From: Tabrizicola sp. | Lineage (GTDB): Bacteria; Pseudomonadota; Alphaproteobacteria; Rhodobacterales; Rhodobacteraceae | Direction: 5' to 3' | Length of the DNA stretch: 64,000 bases | Assembly: GCA_025458105.1 (NCBI GenBank) | Contig: JALOTD010000021.1 | Span: 1 to 64,000, forward strand | In this document: piece by piece, positions 47,143 through 62,496 of the stretch | How positions within the stretch are numbered: the first letter of the stretch is position 1 | Layout of the letters: each line of letters begins with the position of its first letter | Notes under the pieces: generated by a model | What the model was told of the DNA's origin: nothing | Seen by the model: only the letters and a program-made list of their open reading frames with translations | Databases searched by the model: none | Made by a program: the position numbers and the translations under genes

Positions 47143-47179
47143 GCGGGTGTAGCTCAATGGTAGAGCAGAAGCTTCCCAA
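47143..47179 (+). pseudogene. tRNA-Gly(CCC), 5' half cut in the anticodon loop by the integrated element
   Basis: Bases 47143-47179 are the acceptor strand GCGGGTG, the D arm (GCTC-AATGGTA-GAGC), the anticodon 5' stem GAAGC and the loop TTCCCAA. The matching 3' half lies at 62460-62496. Joined at the shared TTCCCAA, they make a normal 74-nt tRNA-Gly with anticodon CCC and encoded CCA; the acceptor pairs GCGGGTG with CACCCGC. Nothing resembling the missing 3' half follows the left junction, so this host tRNA gene is inactive. Confidence 0.9.
47173..47179. other. attL core
   Basis: TTCCCAA, identical to the attR core. It equals the complete 7-nt anticodon loop. On the host side it is flanked by GAAGC; on the element side by ACATATGCG. 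Confidence 0.88.
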
Positions 47180-47242
47180 ACATATGCGCTCGCCGCGATT
47201 TTCCGCCTAACTTCAAGCACATGGGCAGACTAGAAACCGCCG

Positions 47243-47263
47243 GTTTGTAGGCGTTTTGCAGGC
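47243..47263. other. Candidate integrase arm sites, left end
   Basis: Two adjacent direct repeats, GTTTGTAGGC (47243-47252) and GTTTTGCAGGC (47253-47263), match the pair near attR (62322-62343). Arm-type sites near both ends are expected for lambda/P4-type integrases. Confidence 0.6.
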
Positions 47264-47274
47264 GTGCAATGGCA

Positions 47275-48297
47275 TCAAAAATCTTCGTGTGTCGGCTCAT
47301 TCCTGAAATCTACAGACAGCATCTGTGATGCCGTTGAAGCAAAACTTCTGTTCGCGCCGCGGATGGCTTGCGCAGCCTGACGACCTTCGCTGTGAAAACG
47401 CCCCAACTGGTCTCTTAAGTCTGGGAGACGTTCGGTGTTGATGAGAAGGCGAACTGCGGTTCCGGGCATGTTTCCAACCAGATCCACCTTGTCTGTCGCG
47501 GTGAGGTGCAATGCGGCGCTACCGCTGCAAAGCATAAATGAACCCCCGTTCCGACATATCCGATTGGTCATGTAAAGGCCGTATCCGGAGTTCTGCCATA
47601 CGTCAGTACCCTTGCCAGCAAGGGGATTGCCTGAGACACCGGGCATTAGAGCCATTTGGATTGCTTCACGGTCATCCAGTCCAGCAAAGCTGGTGTTGCG
47701 AGACAAACTCTGCCGAATGCCGAGACCTGCATCAGCTATGCCCACTTCGACCTGATTCCGAGATGGCCAATGCTGTGCACAAAGGAACAACTCTGCCGCT
47801 TCGCTGTGCTCTACCGCATTCCTGATGATTTCACGGATCGAGTACGCCAGCGTATCATACAGCGGCCCGCGATCTGCCCGGGTCAAGACAGCCGAGAGTT
47901 CCCGAGCTCTCGTTTCTACAACGTCGCCGACTTCTACCCAGCGTTCGAGTGCTTCGCGCCGAATATCTGCCACAGCGAGCTTTGTGATTGGGACGTAGTT
48001 GTCACTACCGGGGGCTTCTCCTGGCAAGTTGCCGTGCTGTAGTCCGAAGGAATAGAAGAAGCCAAGGTGGGCAGCATACGAGTGGTGTTCGTGGTTGCGC
48101 GCTCTGCACCGGCAATGAGAACGGCTGTCTCTAAAGCGCTTGAGGATTATGGACAGCAGCAACATTGAGAACGGCGGAAACCACCGAGCCCTCCCGAAGT
48201 CGAACTCGTACTCATCGGCCATCGGCAGTTCATCAAGATCAGAAGCAAACGCGAGAACCGAGGGAGGTGCAAGGCTGGTGGGGATGGTTACCAGCAA
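47275..48297 (-). CDS. GHKL ATPase with a possible N-terminal STAS-like domain
   Basis: A 340-residue protein starting at TTG 48297, which has GGAGG five bases upstream (no ATG gives a sensible N-terminus). The C-terminal GHKL ATP-binding fold shows N-box SIREIIRNAVEHSE (about 153-166), G1 box IADAGLGIRQ (187-196) and G2 box NSGYGLYMTNRI (236-247). The N-terminal YEFDFGRARWFPPFSMLLLS resembles the strand-helix of STAS-like proteins. There is no H-box or receiver, so this is not a classical two-component kinase; anti-sigma-like or defence-type GHKL ATPases are closer. It is the element's gene nearest attL, downstream of the element tRNA and on the same strand as the nuclease-methylase gene. 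Confidence 0.75.
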   Translation of the reverse strand: MLVTIPTSLAPPSVLAFASDLDELPMADEYEFDFGRARWFPPFSMLLLSIILKRFRDSRSHCRCRARNHEHHSYAAHLGFFYSFGLQHGNLPGEAPGSDNYVPITKLAVADIRREALERWVEVGDVVETRARELSAVLTRADRGPLYDTLAYSIREIIRNAVEHSEAAELFLCAQHWPSRNQVEVGIADAGLGIRQSLSRNTSFAGLDDREAIQMALMPGVSGNPLAGKGTDVWQNSGYGLYMTNRICRNGGSFMLCSGSAALHLTATDKVDLVGNMPGTAVRLLINTERLPDLRDQLGRFHSEGRQAAQAIRGANRSFASTASQMLSVDFRNEPTHEDF

Positions 48298-48338
48298 AGC
48301 CGCCTCCAGTTGCCTAGTTGGTCTTCTGCCATGGGAGC

Positions 48339-48412
48339 TGGAGCGGGCGAAGGGAATCGAACCCTCGTCTGGAGCTTGGGAAGCTCTCGCTCTACCATTG
48401 AGCTACGCCCGC
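48339..48412 (-). tRNA. Element-borne tRNA-Gly(CCC), complete, CCA encoded
   Basis: Reads leftward from 48412: acceptor GCGGGCG, D arm GCTC/GAGC, anticodon stem AGAGC with loop TTCCCAA (anticodon CCC), variable AGAC, T arm GAGGG-TTCGATT-CCCTT, acceptor CGCCCGC, discriminator T, CCA at 48341-48339. Total 74 nt. Compared with the interrupted host copy it has the compensated acceptor pair C6-G67 instead of T6-A67 and a changed anticodon stem, but the same loop. It should replace the host tRNA that integration destroys. The 27-43 pair is mismatched in both copies. Confidence 0.93.
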
Positions 48413-48464
48413 GACACTGCCTTGCCTACCGTTTCAGTGAGCCAGGTTCAAGGCGGAATCAGTG

Positions 48465-51020
48465 TCAAACCTGCACCACATGCGACGAGCGCGGCTGAAT
48501 GTTGGCGGCCGGAGTGGTCTTCGCCAGTTCCTCGCGGGCAACACGTCCGAGAACCAGATGGCCTGCCTTGCTCTCTTCGATCCGCTCTGCGAACTGATCG
48601 CGCACATCTTTCGATTTGATCGTGGGCAAGATGATCGAACCGATATCCTCGGTGGAGATCGACGACAAACCGTCTGAGCCAGTTGCGAGCGCGCGCATCT
48701 GCACGCGGAACGCCTCCGACGACAGGCCGAATACCAAATCGGGAAGGAGGTCCTCCTTGCCCGGGATCACCTCGAAGTGCGTGCATCCCGTGGTCACGAC
48801 GAGATGACCGTCTGCCGCTTCGTCTCCGGCAATCATCCATTTGCCTGCACTTGACCAAATGTTCGCAATGAAGATGTCCCCGGGGGCCGCTACGAGTTTG
48901 CCACGATCAGGTAGCGCCCATCCAAAGTAGTCAGCCGCGACGTAGGAGCCGAAGTTCTCATAGATCTTCTCGATCTCGACATAGCGGTAGGTTTCGCTCG
49001 ACTTCTTCTTGAGCTTGCGCGTTACAGGTTGGAGTACGTCGCCAACCTTGAAGTGATCGACCGCGCCGATTGCCGCAACGAGGTCTGCGTGCTTCTGCGA
49101 CCAGCGCTTTGGGTCAAGGCAGAGATCGTCACGAGCCACGATACTTGCCATCTGCACGACATAGCCAGAGCCTGACGCTGCGCCGGGAACACCAGCGGCG
49201 AGCCAGTCGAAAGCATCGACAACTGTCGAGGAATAGAGGCCCGACAGAACGCGCTCGAAGTCGGCATCCAGAACTGGCTCATTCGTCGTAGCGTCAAGTA
49301 CGAGCGAACCATCTTTCGGGTCACGGCGATAGATGCGCCCGGAACGTTTGCTCTGCAAATCCCAACCGACCTTCTCGACAAGGTTGAAGTGAACGGGATG
49401 ATCAGGAACGGAAGAAAGGTCTGTCAGTGGCACATCACGTTTTTCGAGGATGACGACTGATGCCGAAACATCAGCGCCAGACTTCTTGAACGTGAAGCGC
49501 GGGAAACCGATGATCGCCGCAACCTTGGCTTGGCGCAGGAGCCAGTCGCGGAAAACGAGGTAGCGCCCGCCGCGGTTTCCAAGATACCCGTTTGGCAGTA
49601 TGATGCCAACGCGGCCGCCGGGATTGATCGACCGAAGGCAAACTTCGACGAACAGGAGGCCAGTCTCCTGGGATTTCAAGGGTACACGCTTGCCGCCGAC
49701 TTCCTCTGTTCCCAGGTCGAAGAGCGCGAGCACTTCTTTACGCTTTTCGACGATCCGGGTACCGAATGGCGGGTTGCACAAGGCAACTGTATACTTGCCT
49801 TCGTGCTTCTTTATGTCCTTAAGGCTGTCGCCAAGCGATATGTTCGATGACCCGTCGCCGTTCAAGATCATGTTGAACACGGAGAGGTTGACTGCCATGT
49901 CCGCTGTATCTACCCCGTAAAGTTGTGGGGCAATGTTAGCACCGTGCCGCTCCTCTGCGATGCGCATCGCACCGACGAGGAAGTCGGACGTGCCACATGC
50001 AGGATCGCGCACCACGTCACCAAATTTCGGGTTCACGATGCGGACGATGAGGTCAATAACCTCGTAAGGGGTGAAGTATTGGCCGAGGTCCACCTTGTAG
50101 AGGAAGCGCCCGAAGTACATGAAGAAGTCTTGAATCACTTGCGGCGACGACCCGAGTATGTCGATGGGGCAGATAATCTTCGACACAAGTCGCAGGGTCG
50201 CGCCCGTGCATTCGATCTTCTTTGATGGTCGCTTGGGCAAATGCGAGCCATAGACGGTCAGGGCAGTTTCCAGTCCTTTCTCAAAAATGCCCAGAACATC
50301 AGAGTCTGAAACACCACGGATAGAGAAGTCCTGAATGATCATGCGGCCATTCTTTGGGCGCGCACTCTGTTCGTCGAATATCTTTGTAAGCAATATCTGA
50401 AACAGAATGGAATATCGGTCGTCCTTTGAAAGCCCTGCCTGATGAAGAATATCATCAAGGCGAGAAAATCGACGAACAAGATCCGCCGCAGGTTTCAAAT
50501 CCTTATAGTGGATATCTTTGGCAGCAAGTGGGACACCAAAGTTAGGCAGCGTTGCAATCGAGGCCTCTTTTGTTTCGATAGTTGAGCCATTCATCTCCTT
50601 GTAGAAGATGGTCTGCTCGACATCGTCCCAGTAGATTCCCAGTGCGTCAGTTGATGGGATCAGGTCAAGCGCAGGCTTGAGTTGATCGTTCTTTGCCGAT
50701 TCTGCGTCCGCAGAATCGCGCTTTATCTCGCCAATGATTTTCATGCATCCTCGCCGTTTGTCATCGGCAAGTATTTTTACGTCCGTTACCGGGCGGTCGT
50801 AAACCACAACATCGGCGCGAAGCGAATTCTTCCCTTTGTGGCCAAACTTGATCACCTTTGTTTCCGCTTCAATTCGATCTTTGGGATACCCCTTTGAAAG
50901 AAGCAAATTGATGCAGTCGATCCTTCGCTTTTCTTCTGTGAAGGTCAATCCGTCTTTCGCCTTCACCTTAGCTTTGAGCGCGCCACGGATCGGGCAGAAA
51001 AGTTGCGGATTAGTGGTCAT
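48465..51020 (-). CDS. Single-chain restriction-modification-like protein: HsdR-N nuclease domain, N6-adenine methylase, target-recognition region
   Basis: An 851-residue fusion. The N-terminal HSDR_N-type PD-(D/E)xK domain (residues ~25-145) has catalytic-looking D70 in LRADVVVYD, E98 and K100 in IIGEIKRD, and Q113. The N6-methylase domain has GQYFTPYEV (~313-321), SAM motif I DPACGTSDF (~339-347) and catalytic NPPFGTR (~416-422). From ~640 to the end it looks like HsdS-type target recognition (VTRKLKKKSSETYRYVEIEKIYENFG; SSISTEDIGSIILPTI). There is no DEAD-box translocase, so it is closer to type IIG than type I. The start ATG at 51020 has AGGGG six bases upstream. A 6-bp inverted repeat in the promoter may be its operator. 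The element tRNA lies between it and the GHKL ATPase gene downstream. Confidence 0.85.
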   Translation of the reverse strand: MTTNPQLFCPIRGALKAKVKAKDGLTFTEEKRRIDCINLLLSKGYPKDRIEAETKVIKFGHKGKNSLRADVVVYDRPVTDVKILADDKRRGCMKIIGEIKRDSADAESAKNDQLKPALDLIPSTDALGIYWDDVEQTIFYKEMNGSTIETKEASIATLPNFGVPLAAKDIHYKDLKPAADLVRRFSRLDDILHQAGLSKDDRYSILFQILLTKIFDEQSARPKNGRMIIQDFSIRGVSDSDVLGIFEKGLETALTVYGSHLPKRPSKKIECTGATLRLVSKIICPIDILGSSPQVIQDFFMYFGRFLYKVDLGQYFTPYEVIDLIVRIVNPKFGDVVRDPACGTSDFLVGAMRIAEERHGANIAPQLYGVDTADMAVNLSVFNMILNGDGSSNISLGDSLKDIKKHEGKYTVALCNPPFGTRIVEKRKEVLALFDLGTEEVGGKRVPLKSQETGLLFVEVCLRSINPGGRVGIILPNGYLGNRGGRYLVFRDWLLRQAKVAAIIGFPRFTFKKSGADVSASVVILEKRDVPLTDLSSVPDHPVHFNLVEKVGWDLQSKRSGRIYRRDPKDGSLVLDATTNEPVLDADFERVLSGLYSSTVVDAFDWLAAGVPGAASGSGYVVQMASIVARDDLCLDPKRWSQKHADLVAAIGAVDHFKVGDVLQPVTRKLKKKSSETYRYVEIEKIYENFGSYVAADYFGWALPDRGKLVAAPGDIFIANIWSSAGKWMIAGDEAADGHLVVTTGCTHFEVIPGKEDLLPDLVFGLSSEAFRVQMRALATGSDGLSSISTEDIGSIILPTIKSKDVRDQFAERIEESKAGHLVLGRVAREELAKTTPAANIQPRSSHVVQV

Positions 51021-51040
51021 GACTGCCCCCTGACTCACGG

Positions 51041-51058
51041 GTTACACCCCGTTGTAAC
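51041..51058. promoter_or_regulatory. Inverted repeat GTTACA-N6-TGTAAC upstream of the nuclease-methylase gene
   Basis: Perfect 6-bp arms (51041-51046, 51053-51058) with spacer CCCCGT, 20 bases before the methylase ATG and in the divergent gap facing the DUF3489 gene. The geometry suits a dimeric HTH repressor. Confidence 0.5.
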
Positions 51059-51198
51059 ACCGTTCTTGCACGGCGTACCGCTACGGGCAACACCTTACAG
51101 CGGGTCAGTCCAATCTTCGGTTGATCGCTTCCGTGGATGGGTCTTAGTGAAAGTGTCGTTCCGGGATTGTTCCTGCGAACCTATCAACGGAGAACGAC

Positions 51199-51672
51199 AT
51201 GACCGACTTCGTCGACATGACCAAAGTCCAACTTTCCGCCCTGATCGGTGGAATGACCCCGAGCCAGATCAAGAAGACGTCCCACGCAGACCTCGTGCGT
51301 ATGGCAGCCGAGGCGTCGTCGCCCACGCGACAGCCCATGTTTGCCTCTAAGCGGACGACGGCGCAAACCCAACAGCCTGCCAAGGGGAAGCCTACCAAGG
51401 TCGCGCCCAAGACTGCCCGCAAACCCGGCGCAGACTGCGTTCTGTTCCCGCCCGCAGACAGCCAGAAGGAGCCGAAGGCGGGCAGCAAGCGGGCGACCAT
51501 CATCGACCTGCTGCGCGCCGCCCAGGGCACCACGGTTGACGAGATTGCAGCTGCTACCGCGTGGCGGCGCGATGTTGCGGCGTCTGCCCTCTATGTCGAT
51601 GTGAAGGGCAGCGGTTTCGGCGTCGAACGCCGCGACGGGCGTCTGCACCTCCTGCCGCACAAGGTGAAGTGA
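51199..51672 (+). CDS. DUF3489-domain protein
   Basis: A 157-residue protein. The C-terminal part (SKRATIIDLLRAAQGTTVDEIAAATAWRRDVAASALYVDVKGSGFGVERR) is a winged-helix-like DUF3489 domain, common on prophages and plasmids of alphaproteobacteria. The middle is a Lys/Pro/Ala-rich linker with a DNA-binding look (KGKPTKVAPKTARKPGA). It is probably a small DNA-binding regulator. It is the only gene in the element on the plus strand; GGAG is six bases before the ATG. It ends at a bidirectional terminator. Confidence 0.8.
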   Translation: MTDFVDMTKVQLSALIGGMTPSQIKKTSHADLVRMAAEASSPTRQPMFASKRTTAQTQQPAKGKPTKVAPKTARKPGADCVLFPPADSQKEPKAGSKRATIIDLLRAAQGTTVDEIAAATAWRRDVAASALYVDVKGSGFGVERRDGRLHLLPHKVK

Positions 51673-51683
51673 TCCAGAGACGA

Positions 51684-51709
51684 AAGGGGCGGCCCGATGG
51701 CCGCCCCTT
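51684..51709. terminator. Bidirectional terminator
   Basis: 11-bp perfect stem AAGGGGCGGCC (51684-51694) with GGCCGCCCCTT (51699-51709), tetraloop CGAT, between the convergent genes ending at 51672 and 51717. Confidence 0.75.
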
Positions 51710-51716
51710 CCTCGCT

Positions 51717-51914
51717 TCAATAAGGTGCCCTGCGGCAGGTGAAGTACCACCTGTCGCTGTGCCGCGTGAGCGTCTGACTTTCGCCATCCTTGACGACCGT
51801 CAGGCGCGTCACCCCCCTGCTCTCAAGGAGCCGCTTGAGAACGTTCCTCTGTTCAACCGTGTGACTCGACGGCTTGAGGAAAAGGTCCGGGGCGGCGATT
51901 TCGCTGTTCGACAT
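51717..51914 (-). CDS. 65-residue hypothetical protein
   Basis: MSNSEIAAPDLFLKPSS... ending RWYFTCRRAPY, with a strand-helix pattern (VEQRNVLKRLLESRGVTRLTVVKDGE). AAGGAG lies eight bases upstream of the ATG at 51914, which argues that it is real. I do not recognise it. It lies between the terminator and the terminase genes; the 212 bases upstream of it (51915-52126) show no other gene. Confidence 0.55.
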   Translation of the reverse strand: MSNSEIAAPDLFLKPSSHTVEQRNVLKRLLESRGVTRLTVVKDGESQTLTRHSDRWYFTCRRAPY

Positions 51915-52126
51915 GTGCCAATCTCCTTTCGTTCAGTGCACAAGGAGAATGTCGCCGACCTGTCAGTCGAAGTCGCTCACAGCCCGTTGCAACGGGCACC
52001 AGAGTCTTGCCGCCCGCAGCAGCGCCCGAGCGAAGGCGGTTCGCGGTCGCGCCCTACGCCGACACGGCGAACACCGAGACGCCGCCTAGCTGACGAAAAA
52101 TCGCGGGGTAGCGGGCGGGTGGCGCG

Positions 52127-52846
52127 TCACCAGTAGCCGCGAAGTCGCGACTCCCCCACATGCGCTCCGACCGACCGATGGTCGGACAGCCAGAAAGCCA
52201 TCGCGGTCGCCATCGCCATATCGAGGTGGCCGTCAGCCATGTCGCCGTCGATCCGCACGCGACCCGAAGGAGCGACCGACAACTCGAACGCCTCAAGTTC
52301 CGCCTGCAACTCCGTCCGCTTCGCGAACGACCCGATCTGCAACTCGCCTGTGTGCAGGGCCGAGTTCAGCGTGCCGAGAAGAAGGTTCCGAGAAACGTTG
52401 TTGAACGTCACGCCCCGTTCCTTCGTCTCGTTCTCGTTGTCTCCCCCGACGATCTGCATCCGCGTGTGGAGAACGCTCTTTGTGTTCAGCAGGTCGCAGA
52501 AGGCGCGACCGGGGCCACCAGCGTCCACGACGAGATAGCCCGAAGACGCGAACGGCTGCTGCATCATCAGGTTCTGGACAACATGGGCGAGGTCCACATA
52601 GGACATGAGGGGAATGAACTCCGCCTTCACGACGACGCGGCGGCGAGGGGCAAGCTCTTGTGCATAGGTCGTCCAGCGAGGCACGCGCTCGTCAAGAATA
52701 ACGGAATATGCAGTGCGGTCGCGACTTTGGGCAATATCTAGCCCGACGAGGTAGCGACGATAGCCGGGGACGACCGGCACGGCTGGGTCGGAGCAGGGAA
52801 GGATCAATCGGTCGCCCTTCTGCACGAGTTCAGCGGATGCCTGCAT
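52127..52846 (-). CDS. Phage terminase large subunit, nuclease part (separate gene)
   Basis: A 239-residue RuvC/RNase H-like nuclease of a terminase. The first Asp is in YLVGLDIAQSRDRTAYSV, the second in YLVVDAGGPGRAFC, and the C-terminal Asp in MADGHLDMAMATAMAF. It would cut concatemeric DNA during packaging. In most phages this domain is fused behind the ATPase; here it has its own ATG at 52846 with AGGAG six bases upstream, and this start overlaps the end of the ATPase gene by 17 bases. The signals suggest a true two-gene arrangement with coupled translation rather than a chance frameshift. Confidence 0.8.
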   Translation of the reverse strand: MQASAELVQKGDRLILPCSDPAVPVVPGYRRYLVGLDIAQSRDRTAYSVILDERVPRWTTYAQELAPRRRVVVKAEFIPLMSYVDLAHVVQNLMMQQPFASSGYLVVDAGGPGRAFCDLLNTKSVLHTRMQIVGGDNENETKERGVTFNNVSRNLLLGTLNSALHTGELQIGSFAKRTELQAELEAFELSVAPSGRVRIDGDMADGHLDMAMATAMAFWLSDHRSVGAHVGESRLRGYW

Positions 52847-53618
52847 AGATGTCTCCTTTCAGCACAAGTTCGGGGGTGTCGGTGAACGCGGCCTCGATGG
52901 TTGAGGGATCGAAGAAGGGCGTGCCGCCGCCCATCCACCTCAACTCGTGTTCGACGGCGAATTGGATTGGCGGCATGAACCGCTTGTCGAAGGCGACCTT
53001 CTCGGCCATGCGCGGCAAGTCGGTCGAACGGGCGGTGATCTTTTCGACCTCCTCGTTCTCCATCCAAAGGCGGTGCGCGAACCCGCCCTTTCGACCGGGC
53101 GTCGTGATCAGCCGGATAAGACCGCCCTCCTCTCGGATGGGCAGTGTGGCGTCGTAGACGGCATCCCCGATGAAGGCCCCCTCCTCATAGATCAGGATGC
53201 CGCCGTTCTTCACGCCCCAGCCACGGGCGGATTCCCCGTCCTGGCCTGCGGGCACGCAGACGATGGCCGACCCGTTTTCGAGTTCCATCACCTGCTGCGT
53301 CAGGCGCGTCTTCTGGATCGGCAACGCCATCGCCTGCCACGCTTGCAGGCACTTCTTGAACAGCAGGGTTGACTGCGAAAGCGTAGGCGACAGGATCAGC
53401 ACGGTTCGGTCGGGGGCAGAGACTGTCTGCGCTGCAAGCACGCCCGTCGTCTGCGACTTGCCGATCCGTCGCGATGCAAGGCACATAGCGAACGGCGCTG
53501 TGGAATTCAGTAGTTGCCGCTGCCACGGGTCACAGGGTCCACCGACAACGCGCTCGAACAGGGCAGTCGGGTCTACCCGTTCTTCGAGCGTGCGGAGGAA
53601 TAGCGAGAGGTCATTCAA
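52830..53618 (-). CDS. Phage terminase large subunit, ATPase part (separate gene)
   Basis: A 262-residue packaging motor ATPase. It shows an N-terminal VGGPCDPWQRQLLNS adenine-binding style segment, Walker A-like LASRRIGKSQT (about 48-57), ILSPTLSQSTLLFKK, Walker B with catalytic Glu ILIYEEGAFIGDA (about 141-153) and coupling motif LIRLITTPGRKGG. The start is TTG 53618 with GGAG eight bases upstream, overlapping the small terminase stop by 8 bases. It ends soon after the ATPase core, and the nuclease domain is the next gene. Confidence 0.85.
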   Translation of the reverse strand: MNDLSLFLRTLEERVDPTALFERVVGGPCDPWQRQLLNSTAPFAMCLASRRIGKSQTTGVLAAQTVSAPDRTVLILSPTLSQSTLLFKKCLQAWQAMALPIQKTRLTQQVMELENGSAIVCVPAGQDGESARGWGVKNGGILIYEEGAFIGDAVYDATLPIREEGGLIRLITTPGRKGGFAHRLWMENEEVEKITARSTDLPRMAEKVAFDKRFMPPIQFAVEHELRWMGGGTPFFDPSTIEAAFTDTPELVLKGDIYAGIR

Positions 53619-54219
53619 GCCGAAGTCTCCGCTGCTGAACGAGTTCGCGGAACAGGTCGAAGGCGTCGGGATACTCCTCGAAAACGAGGTAGAGCACCTC
53701 CTGCAACTTCGACCATTCAGGGCTTTCGTTGATGGAAAGGACGACGGTCGTTTTCTCTTTCAGCGCCGTGTAGGACTTCAGCAACCGCTCGAAAGACTGC
53801 CCCTGATCGCGCAGCAGTTGGGCAAGTGCTGGGGCGAGATCTTCAATATCGCGCCCGTCACCAACCTTCTGCTTGATCTGGCTGTAGATGTCGCGCTGTT
53901 CGCGGATGATCTGCCGCAAACCGCTCTGAACGTCGTCCTGCCCCTCGTTGATCTTCTCGTCGAGGTCGCGCTGTTCCGCCTCCTGCGCCTCAGCCAGGAT
54001 GATCTTGCGGAGTTCGTTGGTGATGTACTTCTTCTTGAACCGCAGGCAGGTCTCGTAATCGACGCCCGTGCGGCGACCGATCTCTGCGAGGCTGCGGCGA
54101 CCAAGAACAATGTCGCAGACGATCTCGCCGACATCCGCGCGGTTACGCAGCACGCCTCGCCTACCCGTCCCGGACTCCTTCGGCAGAGCCTTCAAGACGC
54201 GATCCATGCGGATGCTCAC
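53611..54219 (-). CDS. Probable terminase small subunit
   Basis: A 202-residue helical protein with an N-terminal HTH (EIVCDIVLGRRSLAEIGRRTGVDYETCLRFKKKYI) and long amphipathic helices, as in small terminases that bind the pac/cos site and form rings. It lies directly upstream of the ATPase and overlaps it by 8 bases, the usual position. The GTG start at 54219 has AGGAG eight bases upstream and overlaps the preceding stop by 4 bases (GTGA). Called by position and HTH, not by a recognised family. Confidence 0.65.
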   Translation of the reverse strand: MSIRMDRVLKALPKESGTGRRGVLRNRADVGEIVCDIVLGRRSLAEIGRRTGVDYETCLRFKKKYITNELRKIILAEAQEAEQRDLDEKINEGQDDVQSGLRQIIREQRDIYSQIKQKVGDGRDIEDLAPALAQLLRDQGQSFERLLKSYTALKEKTTVVLSINESPEWSKLQEVLYLVFEEYPDAFDLFRELVQQRRLRLE

Positions 54220-54476
54220 GCCTGCAACTCCTGAACGAGTTCATCGGCCAGCGGCAGGAGGTCAGGCGCAAGGCGGCGCAGTATCGGACGCGCATCTTCA
54301 CCGACGAAGCGGTCGCGCGACACACGCGCGATGAAATCCGGTTCGGGCGCGGCGAACAAGCAGTCAAGGAGGGCGTTCTTGACGACGGCGACGTGGGTTG
54401 CGGTCGGGCGCTTAAACGTCGTCAGGCAATAAGAGGTCGCAAGGTTGTCGGCTTTGTCGGACAGGGAGTTCCGCAT
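54216..54476 (-). CDS. 86-residue hypothetical protein of the packaging operon
   Basis: MRNSLSDKADNLATSY... ending PLADELVQELQA, helical and unrecognised. It sits between the coiled-coil gene (4 bases upstream) and the small terminase gene (4-base overlap), so it is almost certainly translated as part of the packaging operon. It has no clear Shine-Dalgarno and may rely on re-initiation. Confidence 0.6.
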   Translation of the reverse strand: MRNSLSDKADNLATSYCLTTFKRPTATHVAVVKNALLDCLFAAPEPDFIARVSRDRFVGEDARPILRRLAPDLLPLADELVQELQA

Positions 54477-54480
54477 GGCA

Positions 54481-54849
54481 TCAGTCCCCGACGATCTGGA
54501 CGGTGGTTCCGTTCTGCGCCGCCGCAGCCTTTGCGCGACGATACAACACGGGGTCGCGCGCCTGCTGACGGGTCAGCTTCACGGGGTCAGGGTTGAAGGC
54601 GTCCTTGATCGTCGAGGGTGCGTCACCGCGTTCGAGCAGCGCCTTCAACTGACCGAACTCCTGCTGTTGCTTCTCGCGGTCGCGCTGCGAGTCCTTGAGC
54701 TGGTCGAGGAGTTTCGTCGTGTTGTCTTTGAGACCGCCGATCTGCTCTTCGATCTTCTTCGTCAGCGACTCCTGCATCGCCTCCAAGAGTTTCGGGGTCG
54801 CGCGCTCGATGAACTGCTCCATGAGCTTGTCGTTGTGGTCGTCTGCCAT
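54481..54849 (-). CDS. 122-residue coiled-coil protein, possible scaffold-like
   Basis: Acidic and basic residues alternate over a long predicted coiled coil (LEAMQESLTKKIEEQIGGLKDNTTKLLDQLKDSQRDREKQQQEFGQLKALLE), with a short C-terminal tail. AGGAG six bases before the ATG at 54849 fixes the start; the frame runs on to 54906. Size and coil recall phage scaffolding or head-decoration proteins, but no capsid gene accompanies it, so the role is uncertain. Confidence 0.6.
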   Translation of the reverse strand: MADDHNDKLMEQFIERATPKLLEAMQESLTKKIEEQIGGLKDNTTKLLDQLKDSQRDREKQQQEFGQLKALLERGDAPSTIKDAFNPDPVKLTRQQARDPVLYRRAKAAAAQNGTTVQIVGD

Positions 54850-54936
54850 CTGCTTCTCCTGTTCAAAATGAAGACGGGCCCCTGATGGAGCCCGCCCCCT
54901 GAACATGGAGATGCAGGAACTCCCAGCCCTACCCCA

Positions 54937-55656
54937 TCAATATGCGGCAGCAGACTGGCGCGGTTCGACCACAGTGTTTCCCACTTCATCGGAAGCGGTC
55001 AGCCGCCACACGCCCTTTCCGGCGCGCTCCACCAGACCTCGGCGGGCTGCTTCTTCAAGGCGCGTGCGCGCGGGGCCATAAGTCAGGGCGACAGCGTTGC
55101 AGACTTGGCCGATGGTGCACGGACCGTCTTTCAAGGCATCGACGACGCGGGCAATTTCAGCATCGAGCGCCGATGCGCGACCCTGTTGCCACTGGAGCAT
55201 TTCCGCACGGCGTTCTGCCTTTTCGCGACGGATCGCTTCAAGTTGTCTGCTGCGTTCTAGGTTTGCTTTGCGGCGCTGCGCGGCTTCTAGCCAACGGGCT
55301 TGTGCGCCTTCGGTCGCGCGTTTCCGCTCTTGGTATAGGTCACGCGTTTCTGTGATGGCCACGACACGGTCAAACTTCGAACCGGGATAGAAGTCTACAA
55401 GGCAGTCATCACCCTCTAGGAGGGCGATGATCGTCTGCCTAAGGCGATCCGGGTTCTTGCCAGCAGCCAAGCACCAGAATGCTCTAGATTCTGCAAACGC
55501 GCCGCTCTGATCGGTCAGGAAACGGACAGCTTCCAGTTTGCCGTCGGAGGTCGGATTTGCATCTGATGCGCCAGAGGCAGTAGCGGCCGCTTTCACAAAG
55601 AGGTCTTGGACAGCCTGCCGCAGGACGGCCGACGCCAGTGCTTCCGTGGGTGTCAT
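54937..55656 (-). CDS. Coiled-coil protein with C-terminal winged helix
   Basis: A 239-residue protein. The middle is a charged helix (KRATEGAQARWLEAAQRRKANLERSRQLEAIRREKAERRAEMLQW). The C-terminal ~65 residues look like a winged HTH (IARVVDALKDGPCTIGQVCNAVALTYGPARTRLEEAARRGLVERAGKGVWRLT). It may be a DNA-binding structural or regulatory protein. The ATG at 55656 overlaps the portal stop by 4 bases (ATGA). I know no family. Confidence 0.6.
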   Translation of the reverse strand: MTPTEALASAVLRQAVQDLFVKAAATASGASDANPTSDGKLEAVRFLTDQSGAFAESRAFWCLAAGKNPDRLRQTIIALLEGDDCLVDFYPGSKFDRVVAITETRDLYQERKRATEGAQARWLEAAQRRKANLERSRQLEAIRREKAERRAEMLQWQQGRASALDAEIARVVDALKDGPCTIGQVCNAVALTYGPARTRLEEAARRGLVERAGKGVWRLTASDEVGNTVVEPRQSAAAY

Positions 55657-57023: not shown

Positions 57024-57028
57024 GGCGG

Positions 57029-57295
57029 CTACCCTTCAAGGATCAGCGGGATCAGGTGCGGATAGCCGATCAAGAAAAGTCCCGGTCCGTGGTGAACCGC
57101 AACGCCATCGCGGCGACGTTCGAGGCGGATTGCGCCTTCGCCGCCGTCGCGGGACTCAGGGTCGGAGAGGAAGGCGCGCAGAGCGGTGAGGAGGGATTGC
57201 TTGCTGAGGGGGACCGGGAAGACGGCGCTCGTGGAGTTGGTGATCTGTTTCAGTTCGGACGCGTTGTCGCCGGTCGCCGTAAGGGTGATGGTCAT
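57029..57295 (-). CDS. 88-residue hypothetical protein
   Basis: MTITLTATGDNASELKQITNSTSAVF... ending LFLIGYPHLIPLILEG. GAAGG lies six bases before the ATG at 57295. Mostly strand-rich with a basic, charged centre; unrecognised. It ends 5 bases before the portal gene and probably shares its transcript. The longer open frame reaching 57673 is not supported. Confidence 0.5.
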   Translation of the reverse strand: MTITLTATGDNASELKQITNSTSAVFPVPLSKQSLLTALRAFLSDPESRDGGEGAIRLERRRDGVAVHHGPGLFLIGYPHLIPLILEG

Positions 57296-57485
57296 TTGAG
57301 CCTTCTTTGCGGTCGCGACCAAGAGGGGGTGAAAGGAGTCGGGGATGCAGTCCCGCGTGCGCTTTCCCTCTTGGTCGCTTGTGTGACAGCCGAGCGCACA
57401 GCATGACGATACAGCCTGCGCGGGAACGTCGTCGCGGGCAGAACAAGGTGTTGTCGGGCGCAGGCGCAGGAGAATGAGGTGGAGG

Positions 57486-57689
57486 TCATTCGCCGGGAAA
57501 GCATTGCTTTGCGAACCGCAGATATTCGCGCTCTGCCCGTTCGAGGGCGGCGGGGTCAGGGTGACGGACCTGCGACAGGTAGCAGGTGGCGAGCAGGTGA
57601 AGGGCGACCTTGCGCTCTTCGATTGGGAGGGGCGGCGGCGCGTCAGGGGTGACGTGGGCGACACCGTTCTCATCGAGGTAAGGAGGCAT
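57486..57689 (-). CDS. 67-residue hypothetical protein
   Basis: MPPYLDENGVAHVTPDAPPPLPIEERKVALHLLATCYLSQVRHPDPAALERAEREYLRFAKQCFPGE: a Pro-rich start and a helical C-terminal half. The start codon is chosen on composition, as no strong Shine-Dalgarno is seen. First gene of the leftward packaging operon; about 190 bases separate it from the next gene. Confidence 0.45.
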   Translation of the reverse strand: MPPYLDENGVAHVTPDAPPPLPIEERKVALHLLATCYLSQVRHPDPAALERAEREYLRFAKQCFPGE

Positions 57690-58262
57690 GGTCACGGGCC
57701 TGTCGTCGTGGGGATGCGACCATGATCGGCGGACGCGCGGGCCTGCCGCAAACGGTGTCTGAGGATGGACCTCGGATGGGCGGGGCGACAAAGTTCTGGA
57801 AAAAATCTGTCCGACCGTGGGGGCGGGTCCGTCGATCTGCGGCAGGGGGTCCCCTTCCACCCTACCCCGACGCCGTGTTGTGCGTCCGATCTAGGTAGGG
57901 GCAAGATGATGTGTCTGCGCCTTCGCCTTATGTTCAGACAACATATGACATGCGTTACAGATCAAGCAGTTAGCGCACGGTTTGTAGGTGCGCTGTAGGC
58001 GAGGGTCGTTTCAGGCGCAGGATCCAGATACGGCAGCAATGTTGACGCACCACGGAGCGACCGCCGCGAGTTACGGTGCGACCTGCCATCATGCGACGCC
58101 ACGACGTGGGACGCAAAACTCGCAAACACCAATAACTCTTAAACTAGCTTGTCGAGATAAATGGATGGATGGATGGTGAGCAAAACAGTCAGCATCCATC
58201 CATCCATTTAATTGTGTGCGACACTTTGCTGCCGCACACCGTTTTCGTAGTTTGCGTCCCGC
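57690..58262. other. 573-bp gene-free region with an iterated inverted repeat; possible replication origin or terminator
   Basis: No gene is supported here. It contains an 18-bp perfect inverted repeat: TAAATGGATGGATGGATG (58158-58175) and its complement at 58193-58210, 17-nt spacer. Each arm holds tandem ATGG units. The surrounding ~150 bases are AT-richer than the rest of the element. It follows the primase-helicase gene and precedes the packaging operon, so it may hold the operon promoter and an origin recognised by the primase. Confidence 0.5.
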
Positions 58263-60704
58263 TCACGCGATGCCCGCACTCCTGTCCCGCGACTCCGCGT
58301 AGACCTTCGCCATCTCGAAGACGTCGTCCGCCGATGCTTCCACTTCGCGCTGCTTCTGGAAGATGAATTCCCGATCCCGCCCGCGCGTGACGACCCAACC
58401 CGTTGACTTGGCGAGCAGCGATACACACTCCGGTATCCGCGACCCCATCACTCGCGCGTTGGACGGAACGTCAGCCATTGAGATCGGGATCGGCGCTTCC
58501 TTAAGCGTGTCCCTCAGCTCCATCAGCAGCCTGCCCGCCGTGTCGCGGTAGACTGACCCCACGCCCTTGTCGAACCCCTTCAGATGGTGGACGAGAAACT
58601 GATAGACGCTATCAGCCTCGCCAGACTCGAGCGCGATGGACATCCGCATCAATTCGTAGTGCGACATGAACCAGCCATCAGGCCGCCCCATAAGACGCGC
58701 CACACTCTCGCCGACGCGCGTGAAGACCCCGAACCGTGCCGTCGTCTGTTCGATCCCGTGAACGTCGCGCATCACCCGAGAGACGAGGTCGAACAGCACA
58801 CCCCGATACTTCGGCAGCATCGCACGGCGACGGGAAAGGAACTCTTCCTCGTCGATGTAAGCCGTCGGCTTGGTCAGGGTGATCCTGATGATCCGCTCGA
58901 TAAGGTCCTGCTTATAGAAGGTCGGATCGACCCCCGCGACAAGCACAGGGCGCATCGCATCCAGCGCGAACACGTCACCATCCGAGTACTTCTTCCGCCT
59001 GGACATACCACCGCCCGTCGCCATGCGGCAGAGTGCGTCTGAGAACTTGCTGAGCGAAGTCACGTTGTCGAAGGACAGCACGGCTGACTGATAGGCGGAC
59101 ACGACAAGGTCTTCCTCGCTCTGCGGGTCGCCTGCCTGCGCGCCGACCTTTGGATCGACAATCTGGACGATGGTGCTCAACGTGGACGACTTGCCCGACC
59201 CTGCAATCCCGTCGAGTATCGCGATGGGACACTGCCCGCCGGGATGGATGATCGTTGTCGCCATCCAAGCCAGCAAGAAGATCATCGAGTCCTGATCGAC
59301 ATTGAAGAAGGCGAGGAGTTCATCGAGCGACCCGCCACGTTCGACGGCCATCGGCAATCCGACACCTTTGCGGAACTGGACAGGGGCCGCATTGTTGACC
59401 CGCCACCCCTCCTCGTCGATCTCGACGATGGTGCGTTCCTTATCGGCAAGGAAGACGTAGCGCTTGCCGCCGACCTTCGCGAACCGCAAGGCGATCTCCT
59501 CTGGTTCGGTGTCGCGAGCCATCGCCATAGCGATCATCTGAGCGCCCTTGACGGCGCGCTCGTCCGGCAAGTTCTGTTCCTTCCGATACAGCGCGAGGGC
59601 GACCGTTTCCTTGAACTCATTCGAGTCGATCTGCACGAAGTCCCGTTCCCGCAGTTCCGCATACGCCTTGTCTGACTGGTCGCGGAGGATCTTCACGTCA
59701 GTGAGGAAGTCGAGAGCGAGCAGTTTGCGGCGTTCCGACTGCGTGAATGGCCATTTGCCGCTGTAACCGTTTTCCTTCGCGATGTACCAGAACGACAGGG
59801 GCGAGTAGTTCTTCGCGCCTGAAAGCTGGTTCCACTCGTCCTCGTCGCCGTGCCGATAGGCAGATGACGACTTCGACCACTCGACCCAGCGATCACGCGC
59901 CCAGTCGTTCTCTTTGCCGAAGGCGACCTGAAGGCAGATGCCCGCAGCACCCCACTGCGCACGGTCGTCCGCACTGAACCTCTTGATGAAGGCGTCGAAG
60001 GCCGCGTCCCGATCAACGTCGGGCGACTGCTCTGCCTTCTTCTTTCCGGGCTTCTGCATCGGCACGAAGCGCAGATCGAGGTCTTCAACGGAACACTCCT
60101 CAAGGTCAACCATCGTGCCCGAACGCACGAGCCGCATGGGCACGGATTTCCGACCGCAAGGGATCGCGACGTTCTGCCACCCGAACCCTTTCGGCAGAAC
60201 CTCAACCCCGTGTTCAATGCTGATGACCTGCCCCTTCGCGTTGAACTGCTTCTTGTTGAGGCTGCCCGACGCGACCGGCACGAACTTCGTGTTCTCGACT
60301 TTCACCCCATCGAGGAGGCGCTTTGCGTCCTCCTTGAGCTTATCGACCCGGCGAGCGTTCCCGAACGCAAGCCAGATGTGGTAGCCGTTTCCGCCGCCAG
60401 AGCGGAACAGCAGGAAAGGAAGGCCCAACTCCTCAAGGTGAAGGGCCACGTCGATGGTCGGCGTCTTGGCAATGCCCTCGCCCGACTTGTCGTCGAAGTC
60501 GAGAACGAGGAAGTGCGACTTTTCGCGGTCGGGATCGGCGCACAGATACATGCCAAGCGCCTGCCCACCCGAAAGGTGCGCCTGCAATGCGTCCGCCGTG
60601 ATCGGGCCGTCCACGGGCGTGTATCCCGCCTCGCCGTTCGCCGCGAAGTAACGCGTGTGCCGCTCCCTGTGTCCGAGCGCGACGATCTGCTCAATGATGG
60701 TCAC
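58263..60704 (-). CDS. AEP-type primase-helicase (satellite/prophage replication protein)
   Basis: An 813-residue replication protein. The N-terminal archaeo-eukaryotic primase domain has the Asp pair in FLVLDFDDKSG (about 65-75) and GGGNGYHIWLAF. A PriCT-2-like block follows (AAGICLQVAFGKENDWARDRWVEWSKSSS...SFWYIAKENG), then a C-terminal ATPase with Walker A ILDGIAGSGKSSTLS (~510) and a helicase-like sensor region. It would start and unwind element DNA, like the alpha protein of P4. I choose the GTG at 60704, seven bases after GGAGGG; a TTG at 60710 overlapping the AlpA stop is too close to it. Confidence 0.85.
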   Translation of the reverse strand: MTIIEQIVALGHRERHTRYFAANGEAGYTPVDGPITADALQAHLSGGQALGMYLCADPDREKSHFLVLDFDDKSGEGIAKTPTIDVALHLEELGLPFLLFRSGGGNGYHIWLAFGNARRVDKLKEDAKRLLDGVKVENTKFVPVASGSLNKKQFNAKGQVISIEHGVEVLPKGFGWQNVAIPCGRKSVPMRLVRSGTMVDLEECSVEDLDLRFVPMQKPGKKKAEQSPDVDRDAAFDAFIKRFSADDRAQWGAAGICLQVAFGKENDWARDRWVEWSKSSSAYRHGDEDEWNQLSGAKNYSPLSFWYIAKENGYSGKWPFTQSERRKLLALDFLTDVKILRDQSDKAYAELRERDFVQIDSNEFKETVALALYRKEQNLPDERAVKGAQMIAMAMARDTEPEEIALRFAKVGGKRYVFLADKERTIVEIDEEGWRVNNAAPVQFRKGVGLPMAVERGGSLDELLAFFNVDQDSMIFLLAWMATTIIHPGGQCPIAILDGIAGSGKSSTLSTIVQIVDPKVGAQAGDPQSEEDLVVSAYQSAVLSFDNVTSLSKFSDALCRMATGGGMSRRKKYSDGDVFALDAMRPVLVAGVDPTFYKQDLIERIIRITLTKPTAYIDEEEFLSRRRAMLPKYRGVLFDLVSRVMRDVHGIEQTTARFGVFTRVGESVARLMGRPDGWFMSHYELMRMSIALESGEADSVYQFLVHHLKGFDKGVGSVYRDTAGRLLMELRDTLKEAPIPISMADVPSNARVMGSRIPECVSLLAKSTGWVVTRGRDREFIFQKQREVEASADDVFEMAKVYAESRDRSAGIA

Positions 60705-60706
60705 GG

Positions 60707-60910
60707 TCAAGCCCTCCGAGGCTCGACCCGCCCGCTCTCCACGAAGGCGTCGAGGTCAGACTTCTTGTAGCGGACGCGACCTTCGCCAAGTTTGTGGAAG
60801 GCCGGGCCGCGCTTCACCATCCGCCACCATTCAAGGCAGGACTTGCTGTAGCCGAGATATGCCGCTGCCTGAGCGGTATCGAAGAGGGTGTCATTGTTCG
60901 TGTCGCGCAT
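60707..60910 (-). CDS. AlpA/excisionase-like HTH protein
   Basis: A 67-residue MerR-like winged HTH of the HTH_17 type: FDTAQAAAYLGYSKSCLEWWRMVKRGPAFHKLGEGRVRYKKSDLDAFVESGR. Such proteins activate or direct excision in P4-like satellites and integrative elements. GGAG precedes the ATG at 60910 by about nine bases. It lies directly before the primase gene and is probably co-transcribed with it. Confidence 0.82.
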   Translation of the reverse strand: MRDTNNDTLFDTAQAAAYLGYSKSCLEWWRMVKRGPAFHKLGEGRVRYKKSDLDAFVESGRVEPRRA

Positions 60911-61184
60911 AGCGAAACATCTCCAGTTCAGGATGATGTCTCGCTGCGCGTCCCGTGGGTGGTCCTGCCTTTAGCTTGACGGTGGCTTTTGTTCCACCTA
61001 GCCGCAGTGCCGTTGCGTCCCACGCAGTCAGGCTCTCGCCCAATTCGCAGCCATCAGGTCGTCACGTTCACCACGACCAAGACGGATTGATAGTTCGAGT
61101 AACTTAGGACCTCCCTCAAGGCATTGCAAGACGCCTGAGAAAGAATTTCTCACTAAATCAGGTGGTTGCGTTTAAACGCAGAGG
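60911..61184. promoter_or_regulatory. Gap between alpA-like and integrase genes; early promoter region
   Basis: 274 bases with no supported gene. They must hold the leftward early promoter. A perfect 12-bp palindrome GCGTTTAAACGC lies at 61168-61179, 5 bases after the integrase stop; a second GTTTAAACGCG occurs within the last integrase codons (61202-61212). Confidence 0.4.
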
Positions 61185-62309
61185 TCAGAGGAGGTCGCGC
61201 TGTTTAAACGCGCCTACCACCGCCTTCATCGGTTCGATCAGATGCCGGTAAGCGGTCGCGCTGTAACGCCTGCCCGTGACAGAGGTCGGGGTATGGTTCA
61301 ACAGGTGTCCAACCGTGCCCTCACTGAGGCCTGCGTCGTGCTCAGCAACCGTCGCGAATGTGCGGCGATGGTCGTGCGGCGACCAAGGCAACTCCGCCGG
61401 CCTCCGCAGGTGCAGCGCCTGACGTTTGCCGTGGAACACGAATTCCGAGCGGTAGATGCGCATCGGGTCAATGATCGCATGGTGGACGTCGAGCAGCGGC
61501 AAGTCGAAAGGCCTGCCGTTCTTTGTCGTCGGCAAGTGCAAGTGATCATCGAACACCTGATCCCAGCGCAGCGCCATCGCCTCATCGCGGCGAAGGCCCG
61601 TGAACAGCAGGAAGCGGTAGTATGCGCGGTGCACGTCATTTTCGAGGGCATCGACCGATTTCTTCCACAAGTCGAAGTCGTCGATGACCGTCTTCGGTGG
61701 TTCTTCCGGGTGCCATTCAATCGCGATGGTCGGACAGACCGGCAGTTCGTGGGTCTTGAGGGCGTGGTTGTAGACCGAACGGAAGGTCTTAAGCGTGTGG
61801 TTCGCTGCACGCTGCCCGCCCATCTGTTTCGGGCGTCCACGGACGTCCTTGCCCGAGCGAACGACCGAGATGCGCTCGTGCGCCTCGACGCACATCGACC
61901 GCGTGATCTCGTCGAGGGGCAGTTTCAGCCAAGCCTTCAGGTGCGACTTCATTTGCGACGCGACCATCCCCCTGTTGTGCTCTGACCGCAGTTTCGCGCG
62001 TGCGAGGTACCGTTCGAGGGCCTCTTCAAGCGTCGGCGTCTTCTTGGCTGTCAGCTTCTTCGCCGCGACCCCCGTTGCATGTTCGGTCGCGAGTTCGAGC
62101 GCCGCAACACGAGCGTCGAAGGCGTCGATCAGCGGATAGTTCCCGATCTTGATCCGCTGCGTCAGGCCTTTCACGTCCTTCTGGAAGTAGAAGGTCTTTG
62201 TCGTCTTGCCCGTGAAAAGGGCGAACCCCTTGATCTCCGTGTCCCACAGTCTCGCGTTCGGTGGAGCCTTCTTGCAGGCGGTCTCCGTCAGTTTGGTGAG
62301 TTCAGGCAT
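61185..62309 (-). CDS. int: P4-type tyrosine integrase
   Basis: A 374-residue site-specific recombinase. The N-terminal arm-binding domain is DUF4102-like (KGFALFTGKTTKTFYFQKDVKGLTQRIKIGNYP), followed by a core-binding SAM-like domain. The catalytic set is R240 (TGLRRDEA), K263 (TTKNG), H312 and R315 (SPHDHRRTF), H335 (VGHLLNH) and nucleophile Y349 (GRRYSAT). It is 144 bases from attR, as is usual. The ATG at 62309 has GGAG immediately before it, a poor spacing that may keep expression low. It should recombine the anticodon-loop core TTCCCAA. Confidence 0.93.
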   Translation of the reverse strand: MPELTKLTETACKKAPPNARLWDTEIKGFALFTGKTTKTFYFQKDVKGLTQRIKIGNYPLIDAFDARVAALELATEHATGVAAKKLTAKKTPTLEEALERYLARAKLRSEHNRGMVASQMKSHLKAWLKLPLDEITRSMCVEAHERISVVRSGKDVRGRPKQMGGQRAANHTLKTFRSVYNHALKTHELPVCPTIAIEWHPEEPPKTVIDDFDLWKKSVDALENDVHRAYYRFLLFTGLRRDEAMALRWDQVFDDHLHLPTTKNGRPFDLPLLDVHHAIIDPMRIYRSEFVFHGKRQALHLRRPAELPWSPHDHRRTFATVAEHDAGLSEGTVGHLLNHTPTSVTGRRYSATAYRHLIEPMKAVVGAFKQRDLL

Positions 62310-62321
62310 CTCCGTTCATCC

Positions 62322-62343
62322 CTTTTGCAGGCCTTTTGTAGGC
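62322..62343. other. Candidate integrase arm sites, right end
   Basis: CTTTTGCAGGC (62322-62332) and CTTTTGTAGGC (62333-62343), direct repeats matching those at 47243-47263. Between them and attR lie further TTGCAA-containing stretches (CTTTGCAACACATTGCAAGG, 62411-62430) that may bind Int or Xis. Confidence 0.6.
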
Positions 62344-62452
62344 AGCGCATTGCAGCGTGGTAGATCACGCTGGGACGATACATCAACGGCAAGTCATTGT
62401 TTTTCAACCGCTTTGCAACACATTGCAAGGTGCTCATACTGATGTGCTATAG

Positions 62453-62496
62453 TTCCCAAGCTTACGACGAGGGTTCGATTCCCTTCACCCGCTCCA
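62453..62496 (+). pseudogene. tRNA-Gly(CCC), 3' half with attR core
   Basis: attR core TTCCCAA (62453-62459), then the anticodon 3' stem GCTTA, variable CGAC, T arm GAGGG-TTCGATT-CCCTT, acceptor CACCCGC, T, and CCA (62494-62496). Upstream is element DNA (TGTGCTATAG) with no 5' tRNA half, so the gene is not restored at this junction either. Confidence 0.9.

Follow-up and report, generated by a model that had tools for sequence, protein, structure and literature searches.

Elements of an integrase family in Rhodobacteraceae that divide tRNA-Gly genes at the anticodon loop and carry a matching, probable replacement

An integrated element of about 15.3 kb lies in the window analysed here, a stretch of 64,000 nucleotides (nt) from Tabrizicola sp. 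(GCA_025458105.1, contig JALOTD010000021.1, positions 1-64,000 of the forward strand), where it divides a host tRNA-Gly(CCC) gene at its anticodon loop and carries a complete tRNA-Gly with the same anticodon (Table 1). Comparison with its relatives suggests, with a probability that we put at about 0.88, that the tyrosine integrase of the element recombines through the loop of tRNA-Gly and thereby breaks the host gene, that the element replaces this gene with a same-anticodon spare, and that this behaviour is a trait of the whole integrase family. The principle is already known, while the lineage and the carriers are new; what is added here is an integrase family with tRNA-Gly targets, a fixed geometry, the carriers themselves, and a fossil insertion whose spare appears to have become the resident gene. 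Genomes, contigs and loci are referred to by handles beginning with G, C and L.

When the two halves of the host gene are joined, they give a 74-nt tRNA-Gly(CCC) with CCA, and an intact gene of exactly this sequence is present in 21 of the 31 further genomes examined from the genus. A single full-length match of at least 89% to the joined gene is present in 28 of these 31 congeners, which provides the empty site that had been sought in relatives, and no complete match was found in the remaining three, which are drafts (G014, G019 and G026). At the 28 uninterrupted loci, two of which have less than 300 nt of upstream sequence, the flank is homologous downstream in 24, upstream in 12 and on both sides in 10. 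The repeated attachment (att) core, TTCCCAA, is the complete 7-nt anticodon loop, and beyond it there is no identity on either side. No tRNA is rebuilt at either junction according to ARAGORN and Rfam searches of the 64 kb, each of which finds one tRNA, that of the element (48339-48412 and 48342-48412, respectively, both on the minus strand); a cloverleaf fold was obtained for the joined host tRNA and the element tRNA, and not for the 5' junction. The original prediction had described the split gene, the loop-sized repeat, the failure of both junctions to rebuild the tRNA, the complete inner copy with CCA and the extent of the element from core to core, and in all of these respects it was borne out.

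The integrase belongs to a family of 25 distinct loci, window included, in which R240, K263, H312, R315, H339 and Y349, which we take to be the catalytic residues, are invariant across nine aligned relatives. These loci come from a search of a contig collection (seven loci), of 295 genomes of the family Rhodobacteraceae (15 at E<=1e-60, window's own included), of 32 genomes of the genus (only the window's own, or two, one of them the window's own, with a UCC-type integrase as the query), and of 385 genomes of the class (two at E<=1e-50, both belonging to Rhodobacteraceae); L077 and G041 are one locus and were counted once. In 22 of the 25 a tRNA-Gly half cut at the anticodon loop lies just upstream of the integrase, the tRNA being of the CCC type in 10 and of the UCC type in 12, and it is the 3' half that adjoins the integrase in the window, G041 and G331, and the 5' half in the other 19. 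In the integrase tree, from which four of the 25 sequences were omitted as short, the eight CCC rows form one clade (100/100) that is separate from the 11 UCC rows and the two rows assigned to no tRNA; judging from these sequences, one change of isoacceptor would be enough to account for the distribution of targets. G325 and G330 cannot be counted as independent, since their integrases are 98% identical. Among phages, plasmids and viral contigs, relatives of the integrase reach at most about 33% identity, the top ones being short pieces, and none above about 30% was found in the phage collection.

Twelve loci have their two halves on a single contig (CCC: window, G041, G187, G259, G325, G327 and G328; UCC: G102, G172, G101, G247 and G086), and at each of them the halves enclose a complete tRNA whose anticodon matches theirs; relatives of the integrase, whose cargo had been proposed as a check, do carry the spare. 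The genomes of these 12 loci yielded no further complete cognate gene, and their remaining Gly genes have other anticodons (as called by ARAGORN, or from the letters for the GCC type). The spare and the 3' half occur together on another contig in five further cases (G062, G067, G296, G297 and G330), and a complete cognate gene without an adjoining 3' half is present in G129, G329 and G270. That the arrangement is a chimera of assembly or binning is a suspicion that could be raised by the draft state of the window's genome, with its 165 contigs; its recurrence in many genomes, including G172 and G086, which are single contigs with a broken UCC gene, leaves this explanation with a negligible share of the probability.

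The position of the spare is also conserved in the UCC type, where a distance of exactly 93 nt separates its 3' end from the core at every one of the 12 loci resolved by script, three of which have no known integrase (contig C85 of the window's genome, G000; G010; G003). Fourteen UCC loci had been given to the script; of the other two, G086 has the same distance of 93 by coordinates and G129 is without a 3' half. The 93-nt spacers themselves have a mean identity of 50% (range 38-73%). Near the core, repeats like GCCTACAAA are likely integrase arm sites to judge by their pattern: TTTGYAGGC has five matches in 64 kb against 0.87 expected, with none of 100 shuffles reaching five, and at least one arm-like site lies within 250 nt of the core in six of seven CCC elements.

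Many phages bear tRNAs that serve codon supply or escape from anticodon nucleases. The spare could likewise be incidental cargo with no role in replacement, a reading for which such phage tRNAs, also described in PMC10865867, offer a precedent, and which gains from the possibility that loss of the CCC gene alone is tolerated. It is nonetheless improbable in our judgement, as spare and broken gene have the same anticodon at all 12 contiguous loci, the spare is the sole cognate gene found, and the UCC clade keeps it at a constant 93 nt from the core.

Several observations weigh against replacement as a family trait. Three of the 25 loci (G101b, G067b and G270b) have no tRNA half beside the integrase, a complete cognate gene was not found in the fragmentary genome G331, and in G041 the search pattern picked up no arm-like site. 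The distance between spare and core is variable in the CCC clade, where 119-161 nt lie between the 3' end of the spare and that of the half in G187, G325, G327 and G330, and where the spare is ~140 nt from the core in G041 and ~1.2-1.35 kb from it in the window, G259 and G328. In addition, since tRNA-Gly(UCC) can read GGG by wobble, losing tRNA-Gly(CCC) alone may be tolerable. Finally, a second CCC gene could be absent from the window's genome as assembled, which is 90% complete. No second intact CCC gene, whose presence had been set beforehand as the finding that would count against replacement, was found in this draft: an Rfam search gave 40 tRNA matches, and ARAGORN on 37 stretches fetched around the other matches called 38 tRNAs, with one Gly(GCC), one Gly(UCC) and no further CCC gene among them. 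This set is incomplete, as it lacks Tyr and Ile genes, among others. A pattern search for the Gly-type 3' region agrees; it sees only sequences that fit the pattern, with tRNA status judged from the matched letters, and in G086 it overlooked a UCC gene, 75 nt in length, that other searches found.

For the UCC clade the case is different in kind, as UCC is the sole isoacceptor expected under the decoding rules to read GGA, and therefore the spare should be obligatory in hosts whose UCC gene is broken. The original prediction of an obligate break and replace strategy holds in part: integration in the anticodon loop, the lack of reconstruction and the supply of the same isoacceptor were upheld, while for CCC the loss may be tolerable, and the strategy had already been published. 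The spare may also act as an addiction trait.

In the mechanism proposed, the tyrosine integrase would recombine across the 7 bp of the tRNA-Gly anticodon loop, and the stem below this loop would supply symmetric core sites. Because the element shares only this loop with its target, integration would destroy the host gene, and the life or fitness of the host would be preserved by the complete same-anticodon tRNA-Gly, presumably expressed from its own promoter. As spare and integrase occupy opposite ends of the element, excision would yield a circle in which the spare tRNA, the element's attachment site (attP) and the integrase are neighbours and form one cassette. The sister integrase clade would follow the same strategy at tRNA-Gly(UCC) on other carriers.

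The spare of the window differs from the host gene at 8 of 74 positions. The claim that these differences are compensated stem pairs is mostly right: it stands for 6:67 (U-A in the host, C-G in the element) and 28:42 (A-U to G-C), and it fails for 27:43, which is mismatched in both tRNAs, and for positions 26 and 44, which also differ. A changed anticodon stem might shield the spare from being targeted again; variation at this position of the stem is also seen among native tRNAs. Similarly, the view that the spare is not a recent copy fits the window and not its relative G325 (Rhodobaculum), where the spare is identical in sequence to the host halves. Promoter-like hexamers were seen upstream of spares in relatives as well, in a scan that had no control.

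Table 1. Features of the element and its junctions in the 64,000-nt window (aa, amino acids; ORF, open reading frame).
Feature	Position	Strand	Basis or remark
Host tRNA-Gly(CCC), 5' half, ending in the anticodon loop	47143..47179	+	100% to positions 1-37 of the intact congeneric gene
att core TTCCCAA, 5'-half junction	47173..47179	+	
Entire integrated element, core to core, ~15.3 kb	47173..62459	.	Split tRNA and core repeat; empty site in congeners
TTTGYAGGC repeat pair, 11 bp apart, likely integrase arm sites	47244..47263	+	
340-aa protein between spare and core, DrmA-like (weak match)	47275..48297	-	PADLOC DrmA E 1.7e-10; L191 relative matches HATPase_c
Complete spare tRNA-Gly(CCC) with CCA, element-borne	48339..48412	-	ARAGORN, Rfam; cloverleaf fold
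Promoter-like hexamers TTGAAC-17 nt-TAGGCA, 10 nt before spare	48423..48451	-	Best-fit consensus scan without control, 6/12 positions
N6 DNA methyltransferase, 857 aa, defence-type cargo	48465..51038	-	Pfam N6_Mtase; type I MTase and mad2 models; MADS2 below cut-off
Large terminase, presumed C-terminal part, separate ORF	52127..52846	-	phrog_27743 (function unknown); arrangement repeated in relatives
Large terminase, N-terminal part	52830..53618	-	phrog_7579, phrog_2
Conserved 202-aa protein, possibly small terminase (by position only)	53611..54219	-	Cluster C7 in relatives; no family match
Portal protein, 456 aa	55653..57023	-	phrog_145 E 2.6e-98; DUF4055
Primase-helicase, 815 aa	58263..60710	-	Pfam AEP-TOTE, PriCT_2
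Helix-turn-helix, excisionase-like regulator, 67 aa	60707..60910	-	Cluster C3; relative in L190 matches phrog_66 (excisionase)
Tyrosine integrase, 374 aa	61185..62309	-	Pfam Phage_integrase and arm-binding domain; phrog_1
Second TTTGYAGGC pair, 11 bp apart, likely integrase arm sites	62324..62343	+	
att core TTCCCAA, 3'-half junction	62453..62459	+	
Host tRNA-Gly(CCC), 3' half, starting with the anticodon loop	62453..62496	+	100% to positions 31-74 of the intact congeneric gene

The carriers of this integrase family do not resemble complete phages. Seven CCC elements from different genera have a size of 14.3-15.8 kb and share the integrase, the portal and the second terminase ORF (7/7) and the primase-helicase (6/7), with other small genes common to fewer of them, partly because gene calling was simple. 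The backbone of integrase, primase, portal and two-ORF terminase can be followed in the window (51199-55000 region to 60910) and in L189-L193 and L199. Between the terminase and the spare tRNA lies a variable slot with defence-type cargo that differs from element to element: the N6-methylase in the window, a PstI/BsuBI-type restriction system in G187, a cytosine methylase with Vsr in G325 (and, by cluster, in G327), a DRT2 reverse transcriptase above the cut-off in G041, and HATPase-type proteins in G259. Cargo was located at 48465-51038 in the window, L189:677-3087, L190:12682-14500 and L193:1644-2990. A DrmA- or HATPase-like gene stands directly behind the spare and before the att core in two elements (window, 47275-48297 on the minus strand; L191:15002-16027 on the plus strand).

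By gene content, this ~15-kb CCC family resembles a phage satellite in which one slot is given to defence genes, and its elements would presumably be packaged by a helper phage. Like the known satellites, namely P4-like elements, phage-inducible chromosomal islands (PICI) and capsid-forming PICI (cf-PICI), it is compact and combines an integrase with replication and packaging genes, here with defence cargo (PMC10690885). Unlike them, it has its own portal and terminase with no capsid or tail family recognised. In the proteins scanned, matches with E >0.07 being disregarded, no capsid or tail family was recognised, and the major capsid and head maturation genes that cf-PICI have besides portal and terminase were not found. 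The best phage matches of the portal are Pseudanabaena phage Pan1 (46%) and Dinoroseobacter phage R5C (43%), and its relatives occur in 63 viral contigs at no more than 47% identity, except for one at 62% over 52 residues; the terminase parts have no match in R5C, and the primase has only two distant matches. The carrier could instead be a decayed prophage, which would leave the account of the tRNA unaffected, and the kinship of portal and terminase with those of complete phages, the division of the terminase into two ORFs and the lack of a known helper all fit this alternative. We consider it the less likely of the two, a minority view that still deserves some weight, given that seven elements in different genera keep a similar size and a common backbone, that no capsid or tail family was recognised, and that the terminase is split alike in relatives.

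The UCC carriers were sampled through ten proteins from four carriers, among which no phage family was found, and on this sample they look like non-phage islands. In G101, two cytochrome-D1 proteins, a radical SAM protein and an Fe-S protein are read as denitrification genes, and the island, inserted in tRNA-Gly(UCC), measures ~36 kb (L207, L208). Other UCC cargo includes two DUF3604 proteins and a cyclase in G172, pentapeptide repeats in G102 and a peptidase in G270.

Traces of further apparent replacement at tRNA-Gly(UCC) were found where no integrase relative is in sight. In G003 (contig C11; L205, L218), where none was found, a distance of 24.0 kb separates a complete UCC tRNA from the native upstream flank, which is recognised from G001 and adjoins a decayed 5' half, and a native-type 3' half follows 93 nt behind the complete gene. 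G003 is interpreted as a fossil insertion whose spare became the resident UCC gene. For G003 we also weighed, and rejected, a scar formed when 5' halves recombine with each other, as the native flank is 24.0 kb away beside the decayed 5' half; the same kind of scar was also considered in G010. The decayed half has a further bearing, namely on the notion that the two halves of such a gene are a split tRNA joined at the RNA level. To our knowledge, trans-spliced tRNA halves belong to archaea and not to bacteria of this kind. The halves in the window are intact in sequence, as this notion would have it, but a complete gene is present and the related 5' half of G003 has decayed, and we reject it with near certainty.

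The genome of the window has a comparable arrangement on contig C85 (1419-1629; L203), where the UCC gene is followed after 93 nt by a native-type 3' half. Because the contig begins 1.4 kb upstream of this gene, with ORFs that by eye resemble an IS3-type transposase, the remainder of the element is out of view. Together with the CCC spare, this arrangement means that both tRNAs for GGA and GGG in this genome seem to be element-supplied. Among 30 congeners, a 3' half was found 93 nt downstream of the UCC gene in three, matching at 36-37 of 37 positions; in G022 the core is present at that position and is followed by other sequence, and in the other 26 the 3'-half score does not exceed the best of 50 shuffles, except in G011 (23 vs 21). 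These counts therefore do not support the wider proposal of a replaced UCC tRNA in the majority of congeners. In G022 (L161, contig C5; L221, contig C144) a second element is perhaps stacked at the site, and the live UCC integrase lies on another contig.

The closest precedent is tRNA-dependent lysogeny, which was named in 2024 and shown by deletion and plasmid tests in actinobacteriophages (Fionnbharth, cluster L and others), with a prophage of Lactobacillus johnsonii as a likely further case (PMC10865867). The elements described here share with these phages a tyrosine integrase whose attachment site (attB) is a short core inside a host tRNA gene (8-17 bp in the phages; at 7 nt, too short for the tRNA to be rebuilt at either junction here), the lack of reconstruction, and an element-borne tRNA of the same isotype. 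They differ in their hosts, in having satellite-like elements and islands as carriers, and in the fixed place of the spare by the core in the UCC clade; the phages with Gly(CCC) and Gly(TCC) targets in Table 2 of that source are all tRNA-rebuilding types. Integrative and conjugative elements of Pasteurellaceae (2018) in tRNA-Leu carry an intact copy at the element end (PMC6028734), and are conjugative, target another tRNA and belong to another bacterial class. Prophages of Sinorhizobium meliloti that resemble Mesorhizobium phage Lo5R7ANS are reported to replace an inactivated tRNA-Leu(UAG) with their own (PMC11476347); these are likewise alphaproteobacterial, with a different tRNA and with prophages as carriers. 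Both of these systems are likened by description. A study of phiLM21-like prophages reports no such replaced tRNA in them (PMC12429752), and another on Rhodobacteraceae prophages lists tRNA-Gly among their integration sites (PMC8224337). No published report of this strategy in Rhodobacteraceae or of the 93-nt geometry was found in the literature searched, which has partial coverage and few subscription journals.

A broader reading, to which we give an even chance, is that spare, attP and integrase form a portable cassette, which travels between unrelated carriers, both defence satellite-like elements and metabolic islands, and repeatedly captures single-copy Gly tRNA genes in Rhodobacteraceae; some resident UCC genes, as in G003, would then be permanent acquisitions, and in the window's genome both readers of GGG and the sole reader of GGA would be element-supplied. 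The evidence suggests that an entire integrase family in Proteobacteria pursues break-and-replace of a single-copy tRNA as a stable and inherited strategy, and that this strategy extends beyond phages to satellite-like elements and metabolic islands. A UCC gene that is followed by its own 3' half 93 nt later offers a quick sign of such islands. As careless deletion of the element would cost the host a tRNA, the arrangement may help defence and respiratory islands to persist; a 'housekeeping' tRNA may be a gene of a mobile element, and hosts would come to depend on the element for reading some of their glycine codons.

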